Shown here: positions 46,870 through 49,393 of the stretch, one piece after another
How positions within the stretch are numbered: position 1 is the first letter of the stretch
Layout of the letters: every line of letters begins with the position of its first letter
Assembly (NCBI RefSeq): GCF_024707545.1
Contig: NZ_CP062229.1
Location: 372,001-436,000, forward strand
Reading direction: 5' to 3'
DNA length: 64,000 nt
Source: Mesorhizobium onobrychidis
Lineage (GTDB): Bacteria; Pseudomonadota; Alphaproteobacteria; Rhizobiales; Rhizobiaceae
The notes under the pieces: model-generated
Seen by the model: the letters and a program-made list of their open reading frames with translations, nothing else
The model's database searches: none
Told to the model about the DNA's origin: nothing
Made by a program: the position numbers and the translations under genes

Positions 46870-47664
46870 ATGAACGGTTCCGCCGGTCGCAATTCAGAAA
46901 CACGCGCCATCGTCACCGGCGGCGCGCAAGGCATCGGCTACGCCGTGGCCGAGACGCTGGCCGACGAGGGCTGCCGCGCCCTGGCGCTGGTCGGCCGTTC
47001 CAGGGAGAAGGGCGACAGGGCGGTCGCCGCACTTGCGAAAAACGGCGTCGACGCCATCTTCATCAGCGCCGATGTCTCAGAGGTGGCCGATTGCAAGCGG
47101 GCCGTCGAAACGGCGATCAGCCATTTCGGCACTATCAATGCGCTGGTCAATGCTGCCGCCACCTCGGCGCGTGGTTCGCTGGTCGAGACCTCCGAGGAAA
47201 CATTCGACCAGATCTTCCAGACCAACGTGCGCGGCCCCTTCTTCCTGATGCAAGGCGTGGTGGCACAGCTGCTCGCCCGCAAGGCGCCTGGCTCGATCGT
47301 CAATGTGCTGTCGATGTCGGCGCATTGCGGCCAGTCGTTCCTGGCGCCCTATTCGTCAAGCAAGGGCGCGCTGGCGACGCTGACCAAGAATGTCGCCAAT
47401 GCCTACCGCAGCAATCGCATCCGCTGCAACGCGGTGCTGCCCGGCTGGATGGATACCGAGGGCGAGGCAATCGTGCAGAAGAAATGGCACGACGCGCCTG
47501 ATAACTGGCTGGAAAAGGCCGAGGCCGCGCAGCCGATGGGCCAATTGGTGAAGCCGGATCAGCTTGCCCGGTTGATCAGCTATATGATCAGCCCGCAGTC
47601 GGGCGTCATGACCGGGTCACTGGTCGACTATGACCAGAACATCGCCGGATCGTCGCCGGAGTAG
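46870..47664 (+). CDS. SDR-family oxidoreductase
   Basis: 264-residue classical short-chain dehydrogenase. The NAD motif TGGAQGIG, NAAAT-like NALVNAAATS, and catalytic Tyr161 and Lys165 (YSSSK) are present. The cluster suggests it acts on an inositol isomer or amino-inositol derivative, but the substrate is unproven. AGGAG lies upstream of ATG 46870. Confidence 0.9.
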   Translation: MNGSAGRNSETRAIVTGGAQGIGYAVAETLADEGCRALALVGRSREKGDRAVAALAKNGVDAIFISADVSEVADCKRAVETAISHFGTINALVNAAATSARGSLVETSEETFDQIFQTNVRGPFFLMQGVVAQLLARKAPGSIVNVLSMSAHCGQSFLAPYSSSKGALATLTKNVANAYRSNRIRCNAVLPGWMDTEGEAIVQKKWHDAPDNWLEKAEAAQPMGQLVKPDQLARLISYMISPQSGVMTGSLVDYDQNIAGSSPE

Positions 47665-47694
47665 CGCCGGCGAGTCCAGCGGAACGCCCATCAC

Positions 47695-47870
47695 TTCGTC
47701 ATCCACGGGCGGAGCAAGGAGCGTAGCGACGTGGCGCAGACCCGAGGATCCATGCCGTGACTTCTAGGCGCCGCTACAATGCAGAACTCTGCTCCGCTGC
47801 ACTCCTTGGCCAAGGTAACGGCATGGATCCCAGGGTCTCCGCGACGGAGCTTCGCCCTGGGATGACGAAC
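47695..47870. repeat. long intergenic inverted repeat (family C)
   Basis: Arms beginning cgtcatcc and ending gatgacg pair across about 60 bases per side, including aggatccatgccgt versus acggcatggatcc. No open frame or transposase is present. It lies between the SDR gene and the aro leader, and resembles a genomic repeat unit or MITE-like sequence. Confidence 0.6.
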
Positions 47871-47895
47871 TCGGCGCTTCGGCCTCACCGGACGC

Positions 47896-47924
47896 GTGAC
47901 AAGCGCCTCGGCTTCGATTATATG
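47896..47924 (+). promoter_or_regulatory. probable promoter of the aro leader
   Basis: GTGACA, 17-base spacer, TATATG. The predicted transcription start would fall at about 47931, exactly on the second ATG of the leader peptide, giving a leaderless mRNA as known for rhizobial trpL. Confidence 0.45.
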
Positions 47925-47930
47925 AGCCTC

Positions 47931-48002
47931 ATGATCAACCTGACCGCCACGTATTGGTACTTTAGCAGCTCGCTGGCGGCGGGAGGATTGCGCTCGATCT
48001 GA
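47931..48002 (+). CDS. leader peptide with Tyr-Trp-Tyr-Phe, attenuator of the DAHP synthase gene
   Basis: A 23-codon frame (ATG 47931; an in-frame ATG at 47922 would add three residues) contains the consecutive aromatic codons tat tgg tac ttt at 47952-47963 and stops at TGA 48000-48002, 24 bases before a terminator hairpin. The peptide reads MINLTATYWYFSSSLAAGG-. It is followed by the DAHP synthase gene, the first enzyme of aromatic amino-acid synthesis, so ribosome stalling on Tyr, Trp and Phe codons is the expected control. Confidence 0.75.
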   Translation: MINLTATYWYFSSSLAAGGLRSI

Positions 48003-48026
48003 AGATTGCAGCATCAAAATCCGAAC

Positions 48027-48051
48027 AGCCGCCAGACCTGGCGGCTTTTTT
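48027..48051 (+). terminator. attenuator terminator before the DAHP synthase gene
   Basis: Eight-base stem agccgcca/tggcggct with a gacc loop and six T. Its left arm can alternatively pair with ctggcggc at 47973-47980 inside the leader (antiterminator), and that segment can pair with ccgcca at 47944-47949 upstream of the Tyr-Trp-Tyr-Phe codons. Confidence 0.8.
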
Positions 48052-48091
48052 GTTTCAAGCCGGCAGGTCTCCCAACCAGGAGCAGAAAGCC

Positions 48092-49183
48092 GTGTTGACC
48101 ACCACAGATGATCTTCGGGTCAAGGAAATAAGGGAACTGAGTACGCCGGACCAGGTGATGCGGGAGATACCGCGCACGCTGACGGCGACGCGGACCGTTG
48201 CCGCGTCACGCAACGCTATCCACGCCGTTCTGACCGGCGCCGATGACCGGCTGGTCGTCGTCGTCGGCCCCTGTTCGATCCACGACCCGGCCGCTGCCGT
48301 AGACTACGCCAGCCGACTGGCGGGGCTGCGTGAGAGCCTGTCGGACCGGCTGGAGATCGTGATGCGGGTGTATTTCGAGAAGCCGCGCACGACGGTCGGC
48401 TGGAAGGGCCTGATCAACGATCCCGACCTGGACGGCAGCTTCAACATCGACAAAGGACTGAGGCTGGCCCGCAACGTGCTCTCCGCCGTCAACAATCTCG
48501 GCCTTCCGGCGGCGACCGAATTCCTCGACATGGCCACCCCGCAATACATTGCCGACCTCGTCGCCTGGGGCGCGATCGGCGCGCGCACGACAGAGAGCCA
48601 GATCCATCGCGAACTCGCATCCGGCCTGTCCTGCCCGGTCGGCTTCAAGAATGGCACCGACGGCAGCCTGCGGATCGCCGCCGAGGCGGTGAAGTCCGCC
48701 GCCCAGCCGCATCATTTCATGGCGGTGACGAAAGGCGGACGCAGCGCCATCGCGACGACCACCGGCAACGAGAACTGCCACGTCATCCTGCGCGGCGGCA
48801 TTGTGCCGAACTATGACGCAACGAGCATAGCTGCCGCCTGCGCGGAACTCGGCCGGGTCGGCATCTCGCCACGGCTGATGATCGATGTCAGCCACGCCAA
48901 CAGCAACAAGAAGCCGGAGAACCAGCCGATGGTGGTGGCTGACGTGGCGGGCCAGGTCGCGGCAGGCGACGAGCGCATCATCGGCGTTATGATCGAGAGC
49001 AACCTCGTCGCCGGCCGGCAGGAGGTCATGCCCGGCAAGCCGCTCGTCTACGGCCAGAGCATCACCGATGGCTGCATCGACTGGGCAACCACCGAGACGG
49101 TGCTGCACGGCCTTGCCGACGCCGTCGAGCGGCGCCGGTCAGCGCGACGCGCCATGATCGCCAGCCGTCCGGGAGCCGCCTGA
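48092..49183 (+). CDS. aroG: 3-deoxy-7-phosphoheptulonate (DAHP) synthase, class I
   Basis: 363-residue enzyme joining PEP and erythrose 4-phosphate at the entry of the shikimate pathway. Motifs: VVVGPCSIHDP, MRVYFEKPRTTVGWKGLINDP, GARTTESQIHRE and LMIDVSHANSNK, all standard for AroF/G/H-type synthases. The likely start is GTG 48092 with AGGAG nine bases upstream; an ATG at 48050 lies on the terminator. Whether it is the Phe-, Tyr- or Trp-sensitive type cannot be told; aroF would be an equally valid name. Confidence 0.93.
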   Translation: MLTTTDDLRVKEIRELSTPDQVMREIPRTLTATRTVAASRNAIHAVLTGADDRLVVVVGPCSIHDPAAAVDYASRLAGLRESLSDRLEIVMRVYFEKPRTTVGWKGLINDPDLDGSFNIDKGLRLARNVLSAVNNLGLPAATEFLDMATPQYIADLVAWGAIGARTTESQIHRELASGLSCPVGFKNGTDGSLRIAAEAVKSAAQPHHFMAVTKGGRSAIATTTGNENCHVILRGGIVPNYDATSIAAACAELGRVGISPRLMIDVSHANSNKKPENQPMVVADVAGQVAAGDERIIGVMIESNLVAGRQEVMPGKPLVYGQSITDGCIDWATTETVLHGLADAVERRRSARRAMIASRPGAA

Positions 49184-49190
49184 AGCCTTT

Positions 49191-49380
49191 CACCTTCTCC
49201 CCTTGTGGGAGAAGGTGGATCGGCGCGTAGCGCCGAGCCGGATGAGGGGTGCTGGAAGAAACGGTGCGCTAAAATTTCAAATGAATTGAAGCCCTTACGA
49301 CTTCAAGTCGCGATCCGTCCAACACCCCTCATCCGACCGAGCTTCGCTCGGCCACCTTCTCCCACAAGGGGAGAAGGGGA
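49191..49380. repeat. GC-rich inverted repeat pair between converging genes (family B, copy 1)
   Basis: Left arm accttctccccttgtgggag (itself a hairpin) plus gccggatgaggggtg; right arm cacccctcatccg plus ccttctcccacaaggggaga. It fills the gap between the converging DAHP synthase and dehydrogenase genes, so it may terminate transcription both ways. Confidence 0.7.
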
Positions 49381-49393
49381 GCCAACGCCGGCG

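Follow-up and report, generated by a model that had tools for sequence, protein, structure and literature searches.

The aroG locus

The stretch of 64,000 nucleotides of the Mesorhizobium onobrychidis contig NZ_CP062229.1 analysed here ("the window") carries an aroG gene at 48092..49183, on the forward (+) strand like the promoter, leader, segments and Shine-Dalgarno sequence described below; it begins with a GTG start codon and encodes a type I (AroFGH) DAHP synthase of 363 amino acids. The earlier sequence-only reading of this DNA had named the gene as one for DAHP synthase, and its product indeed scores 524.1 bits against TIGR00034 (cut-off 173.2, E 1.2e-157); the best-scoring solved chains for AroG include Phe-regulated DAHP synthases. 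Of the 61 genomes searched, 60 encode a type II DAHP synthase, so AroG is the second enzyme here, and in this genus it looks, beside the type II enzyme, like a reserve enzyme that is turned on by shortage.

Upstream of aroG lies a putative promoter with a −35 box GTGACA (47896..47901) and, after a 17-nt spacer, a −10 box TATATG (47919..47924), the end of which is 6 nt 5' of the ATG (47931) of a leader frame of 23 codons, MINLTATYWYFSSSLAAGGLRSI (47931..48002, stop codon at 48000-48002). This frame has no Shine-Dalgarno sequence and is predicted to be leaderless. Within it are CCGCCA (segment 1, the putative protector, 47944..47949), the consecutive putative regulatory codons TAT TGG TAC TTT for Tyr-Trp-Tyr-Phe (47952..47963), and CTGGCGGC (segment 2, the 5' arm of the putative antiterminator, 47973..47980). 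Beyond the frame, segment 3 (48027..48035) serves both as the 5' arm of the terminator and as the 3' arm of the antiterminator, and segment 4 with its U run (48038..48051) consists of the 3' arm of the terminator (48038-48046) and five T residues (48047-48051), the stem having a stability of −15.0 kcal/mol. The Shine-Dalgarno sequence of aroG, AGGAG (48078..48082), lies 3' of the terminator. On re-reading of the sequence the promoter, leader, CCGCCA, Tyr-Trp-Tyr-Phe codons, segment 2 and terminator all stand exactly where the sequence-only reading had placed them.

Two terminator-like sites, this terminator among them, occur in 47600-48400, where shuffled sequences give 0.5 ± 0.8. Over all its six frames the window contains three runs of four aromatic codons, and the remaining two are found one in a 298-codon frame and one in a frame without a start codon. 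The leader frame has another ATG upstream, at 47922, which shares bases with the −10 box and is absent from some relatives, so 47931 is the likelier start of the leader. We note that aroG and its leader are flanked by two dispersed repeats: an imperfect inverted repeat with arms of 41 and 21 nt at 47690-47872, directly 5' of the promoter, gives 52 match rows in its own genome and is thus a dispersed palindromic repeat, and a second palindromic repeat at 49186-49382, directly 3' of aroG, gives 123 (self and both strands counted in both cases).

Conservation and coding constraint of the leader peptide

The leader is present in all 36 of the aroG-bearing genomes among the 61 searched (own genome included; 30 same-genus loci and six more), one of which holds only the first part of the gene. 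A conserved YWYF-type leader with its terminator does stand ahead of aroG in related genomes. Residues 8-11 of the leader are YWYF in 19 and FWYF in 14 of the 33 loci of the genus; the variants of the run in the genus are YWYF, FWYF, FWYFSYG, FWYFYYD and similar ones, and the differences in length are of whole codons.

Two alignments were used. A2 comprises 47 leaders out of a less redundant set of 64, and A1 comprises 26 of them; the leaders come from a source set that includes the best 80 of 591 loci; "alpha" leaders, here and below, are those sorted as such by record titles and kinship labels. In the 26 alpha leaders of A1 the four aligned aromatic codons, taken by alignment position and not by residues, have a pS of 0.826 and a pN of 0.192 (ratio 0.23), indicating mostly synonymous change, and the same codons give a ratio of 2.80 when shifted by one base (26 rows) and of 0.90 when shifted by two (7 usable rows). 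The wider alignment agrees, with a pN/pS of 0.30 in frame (46 of the 47 rows) and of 2.74 (46 rows) and 0.62 (24 rows) when shifted. Values of pS 0.704 and pN 0.047 from blocks picked as [FY]WYF were set aside, as pN is low there by construction. Selection at the peptide level on the C-terminal tail G-x-R-S-I was considered and found no clear support (pN/pS 0.74 in frame vs 0.83 and 0.97 out of frame).

Promoter and predicted start of the leader transcript

A promoter with a 17-nt spacer is likewise the best one in 51 of 51 alpha leaders, a set that includes loci from the best 80 of 591 and in which 33 leaders (L001-L033) come from one genus. The distance from the end of the −10 box to the ATG is 6, 7, 8 and 10 nt in 37, 11, 2 and 1 of them, respectively, and a distance of 5-8 nt occurs in 38 of 1020 shuffles. 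The best promoter thus predicts a transcription start on the ATG or 1-2 nt 5' of it in 50 of the 51, and not 3' of the hairpin, in agreement with the start on the leader ATG that had been proposed earlier. A Shine-Dalgarno-like 4-mer stands ahead of none of the 51 alpha leaders and ahead of aroG at 47 of the 51 alpha loci. Judging from this promoter geometry and the lack of a Shine-Dalgarno sequence, the leader mRNA is probably leaderless in the window's locus and in its alpha relatives. A strict sigma-70 scan of 47600-48400 listed no promoter; it misses this one because TATATG lacks the final T that the scan demands.

Of the 42 non-alpha leaders, 40 could be scored for a promoter, and in 13 of these the end of the best promoter lies 5-9 nt 5' of the ATG; a Shine-Dalgarno-like motif is found in one of the 42. 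Most xanthomonad-like leaders would fit a leaderless start, and the Massilia- and Burkholderia-like leaders would rather have a short 5' untranslated region of about 20-40 nt.

Predicted alternative pairings in the leader RNA

The terminator helix, 3:4, is paired in 98.7% of the cells of the 47-leader alignment, 27 of which are changed on both sides, and the antiterminator helix, 2:3, in 87.8%, with 15 changed on both sides; none of 500 shuffles is as high for either helix, and the pairing of both falls strongly when the partner is slid along. Counted by base pair, a two-sided change is seen in two pairs of helix 3:4 and three of helix 2:3, numbers that 92 and 4 of the 500 shuffles also reach; the further pair types are equalled by 218 and 90 of 500, these covariation shuffles being ones that ignore kinship. 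The outermost pair of 2:3 is unpaired in 26 of the 47 leaders. The protector helix, 1:2, is supported in the window's leader (codon-shuffle p 0.02), as it is in eight Burkholderia-like leaders; in a set that includes the best 80 of 591 loci, 8 of 31 distinct alpha rows and 8 of 37 other rows (16 of 68) reach a codon-shuffle p of 0.05 or less. The leader frame as a whole is more stable in its folding than codon shuffles, with a mean z of −1.34 in 36 alpha rows and −0.66 in 40 other rows.

The free leader is predicted to fold into 1:2 (P 1.00) and 3:4 (P 0.97). A ribosome was represented by a mask of the general size of a ribosome footprint, reaching 16 nt upstream and 12 nt downstream of the first base of the A-site codon. 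With this mask placed on each of the four aromatic codons in turn and segment 4 not yet made, P(2:3) is 1.00, 1.00, 1.00 and 0.98; with the mask on the stop codon P(1:2) is 0.82, and the full leader then gives 1:2 at 1.00 and 3:4 at 0.97. When the full leader is folded with the mask on the four codons in turn, P(2:3) is 0.96, 0.35, 0.60 and 0.31. Since P(3:4) at equilibrium is still 0.63 and 0.66 with the ribosome on the Trp or the Phe codon, the switch must depend on the order of synthesis. The attenuator proposed in the sequence-only reading is thus supported by comparison with relatives, and the alternative pairings that it would use are reproduced in these predicted folds.

The distance from the start of the last aromatic codon to segment 2 is 13.9 ± 2.7 nt in 76 distinct rows (from a set that includes the best 80 of 591 loci), and it is 12, 13 or 14 nt in 48 of these 76 leaders; several Massilia-like, Devosia-like and other leaders have a spacing of 17-20 nt. 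The distance from the first aromatic codon is 32.4 ± 7.7 nt in the same number of rows and varies widely. Because the last distance is tight and the first variable, inserted aromatic codons appear mostly to keep the last codon in register with segment 2. The distance from the A site to the leading edge of the ribosome is about the same, as a stall-driven switch needs.

Which amino acids the leader answers to can be considered from the peptides and from the masked folds. All 66 distinct leader peptides (the set includes the best 80 of 591) contain Phe and Tyr and 45 contain Trp, and a review states, in the part that treats aroR of Corynebacterium glutamicum, that it answers to Phe limitation and not to Tyr availability (PMC11802643). 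An attenuator that answers to one or two amino acids (e.g., Phe and Tyr), with Trp minor, would be compatible with ribosome-mediated attenuation here and is a refinement that we regard as possible, if somewhat doubtful, since all three aromatic residues are present in 24 of 28 distinct alpha peptides and each of the four codons frees segment 2 under the mask in the window's leader.

The terminator might also be ruled by another sensor, a protein or a metabolite-binding RNA, with the short frame as a by-product. There is room for such a sensor in that neither the window nor any of nine relatives has a match to an Rfam family at its gathering cut-off; at E values up to 5 the leader stretch matches only RNAI, Phe_leader and BjrC1505, each under its cut-off, with Phe_leader (RF01859) at 19.5 bits versus a gathering cut-off of 55 (E 0.46). 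However, the 47-leader alignment has few conserved columns outside the frame, segment 2 and the terminator, and the aromatic block of the frame varies mostly synonymously, so we consider another sensor very unlikely.

Distribution and specificity of the leader

The aroG upstream regions assembled here number 115 (L001-L030, L031-L110, which are the best 80 of 591 confirmed, L111 and L113-L116), and 112 are of full length. A detector was set to ask for a terminator, for 5 nt complementary to the 5' arm of that terminator, and for a short frame in which eight codons include three or more aromatic residues. It finds this arrangement in 91 of the 112, which were picked by AroG similarity alone and of which 33 are from the window's genus and so not independent (the best 80 of 591 are included). 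On controls it responds once among the 112 reverse complements, once among 1016 stretches taken from elsewhere in these loci, and never among 336 shuffles. By a looser test, 95 of the 115 regions (again including the best 80 of 591) have a terminator and a leader, of which L073 and L089 are doubtful, and 20 have no terminator or no leader, two of them ending at contig edges. In L073 (Candidatus Burkholderia humilis) the leader frame continues through the terminator and the leader may be decaying, and in L089 the hairpin is of another kind; both were left out of the spacing, codon-shuffle, non-alpha promoter and peptide counts.

Outside the genus, the same layout is found ahead of aroG at loci with, by record title, the names Bradyrhizobium, Devosia, Phenylobacterium, Massilia, Rugamonas, Janthinobacterium, Burkholderia, Caballeronia, Bordetella, Xanthomonas, Stenotrophomonas, Rhodanobacter and Dyella. 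It was not found at the aroG of, for example, Thauera, Azoarcus, Methylotenera, Erwinia, Pantoea, Citrobacter and Pectobacterium loci. L081, L168 and L172 form a Rhizobium-type branch of aroG, at about 65% identity, with the divergent leaders ASRFYSYRCSQ and ASRFYWYRCSQ and the terminator arms CCGCTAG/CTGGCGG.

A covariance model built from the 47 leaders (R1), six of which are from the 36 aroG-bearing genomes, scores 82-109 bits in these 36 genomes. Of the 25 genomes that lack aroG, four have matches, none of which exceeds 32 bits. In 299 genomes of the phylum there are 37 full-length R1 matches of at least 36 bits, 35 of them directly 5' of aroG (30 read by tblastn and five placed by coordinates) and two directly 5' of pheS. 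Of the 30 loci read, 29 show the aromatic leader frame where it would be expected (at L167 the script chose another frame) and 29 have the terminator pattern (all but L170). The pheS genes were recognised by TIGR00468 at about 400 bits, and the leader ahead of them we take to be pheM. Downstream of nine weaker full-length matches no aromatic gene was recognised by eye. Within the window's class, all 18 genomes of this sample that are above the TIGR00034 cut-off have an R1 match, and in the whole phylum sample 35 of 172 aroG-bearing genomes have one, a count from which the filters may have lost weak matches.

Partial R1 matches of about 25-36 bits are numerous and cover mainly the 3' part of the model, which indicates that similar terminators are common, and the hairpin itself is a sound intrinsic terminator. 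The hairpin could therefore be a plain terminator, of an upstream gene or of a stray promoter, with the aromatic run there by chance. Such a reading leaves unexplained the mostly synonymous change of the aromatic codons, the conserved segment 2 and the detector counts of 91 of 112 versus 1 of 1016, and we regard it as extremely improbable; these counts and the pS and pN of the aromatic codons led us to reject a chance terminator beside a chance aromatic run.

In a sample of the window's class, from which 12 loci under the TIGR00034 cut-off were left out, aroG is found in 6 of 190 genomes; five of these, the window's own included, have the leader, and the sequence of the sixth ends at a contig edge before the leader would be reached. 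The patchy occurrence of aroG together with the constancy of its leader suggests joint transfer. A more speculative extension, which seems to us unlikely, is that this is an undescribed attenuator family that moves with type I aroG across several proteobacterial classes as a portable, self-regulated cassette and acts as a Phe/Tyr/Trp OR gate, and that the terminated leaderless RNA, about 121 nt long, would in addition act in trans together with the leader peptide, as is reported for rnTrpL and peTrpL.

A putative attenuator of DAHP synthase

We interpret the region between the promoter and aroG as a ribosome-mediated transcription attenuator (probability about 0.93) by which the type I DAHP synthase would be inducible by low levels of charged tRNA-Tyr, tRNA-Trp or tRNA-Phe. 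From the parts of the leader, their conservation, the coding constraint, the covariation of the helices, the codon spacing and the promoter geometry, which are seen in the sequence and its comparison with relatives, we infer the transcription start, the stalling, the read-through and the relevant amino acids as follows. RNA polymerase would start on the leader AUG, so that translation of the leader would take place on a leaderless mRNA. With ample aromatic aminoacyl-tRNA, the ribosome would reach the stop codon, segments 1 and 2 would re-pair behind it, helix 3:4 would form, and transcription would end after about 121 nt. A ribosome waiting on one of the four aromatic codons would cover segment 1, with its front edge at or just short of segment 2, and segments 2 and 3 would then pair before segment 4 is synthesized, so that the terminator would not form; aroG would then be transcribed, and translated from its own Shine-Dalgarno sequence.

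DAHP synthase is the entry step of the shikimate pathway, and one leader that reads the aromatic supply would be a simple answer to its control, covering rhizobial, Burkholderia-like and xanthomonad-like proteobacteria. A single covariance model suffices to annotate the leader family, which is open to direct tests in model rhizobia.

Related systems

Attenuators of this kind are already known (trpL, pheL and C. glutamicum aroR), and what is particular here is the probable leaderless start together with codons for three aromatic amino acids. We found no report of a proteobacterial aroG leader family in the open-licence literature, which is no proof of its absence. The names aroG, aroF and DAHP are absent from the main text of a broad survey of premature terminators (PMC2965389), and nothing was found on an aroG leader in the portions of main text seen from the transcription-start maps of Bradyrhizobium (PMC4842269) and B. 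cenocepacia (PMC4603805).

An E. coli aroF attenuation had been hypothesized earlier, according to a section of PMC8632094, and the same section gives the uORFC-13-1 motif, computed ahead of Acholeplasma aroF. That motif resembles the aroG leader as a computed attenuator-like element ahead of a DAHP synthase gene, but it includes a ribosome-binding site and is described there only from environmental sequences and from Acholeplasma. For Shewanella, a proteobacterium, an excerpt of PMC2659441 lists a predicted RNA 5' of aroF as an "attenuator sensing tyr-tRNA"; by description only, this is likewise an attenuator-like prediction at a DAHP synthase gene.

The window's leader has in common with the aroR attenuator an aromatic leader peptide ahead of a DAHP synthase gene; the two differ in that C. 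glutamicum is an Actinobacterium and that the regulatory run of aroR as described has no Trp, a comparison made by description only. The aroR attenuator was reportedly described by Neshat et al. in 2014. As summarised in parts of two papers, C. glutamicum aroF, for DAHP synthase, is controlled by ribosome-mediated attenuation through the leader aroR with Phe-Tyr-Phe (PMC4046766, PMC11802643), and read-through occurs under Phe limitation (the latter). The enterobacterial systems resemble the aroG leader in their aromatic-rich leaders, and pheS leaders are the only full-length R1 matches of at least 36 bits that are not at aroG, but the genes are others and, as noted above, the Rfam Phe_leader scores far under its gathering cut-off here. 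These attenuators bear the names pheL/pheA and pheM/pheST. Attenuation of pheA and pheST is covered in a portion of PMC11802643.

The rhizobial trpL (rnTrpL/peTrpL) of S. meliloti has a leader mRNA that is reported as leaderless in parts of PMC7298713 and PMC10117765. It is like the aroG leader in its leaderless mRNA, its consecutive regulatory codons and its terminator, a likeness by description and not by alignment, and differs in its Trp-only run and in the gene that it precedes.

A similar leader was sought at the type II DAHP synthase gene of the window's own genome and rejected, as the short frame there, MEPRSPYWGRNGGR, has no evident terminator; no counterpart of this frame was seen in three relatives of the order. 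We note that MEPRSPYWGRNGGR, at L135 5' of that gene, holds Tyr-Trp, and that a GCACCC/GGGTGC hairpin is seen by eye ahead of the gene. The own genome also has a leader with three consecutive Trp residues (WWW), MNMRSIKTVWWWAR, ahead of trpE (L129), with TATTGG seven nt 5' of its ATG; this leaderless-looking trpL is followed by a hairpin with a T-rich tail, as judged by eye.
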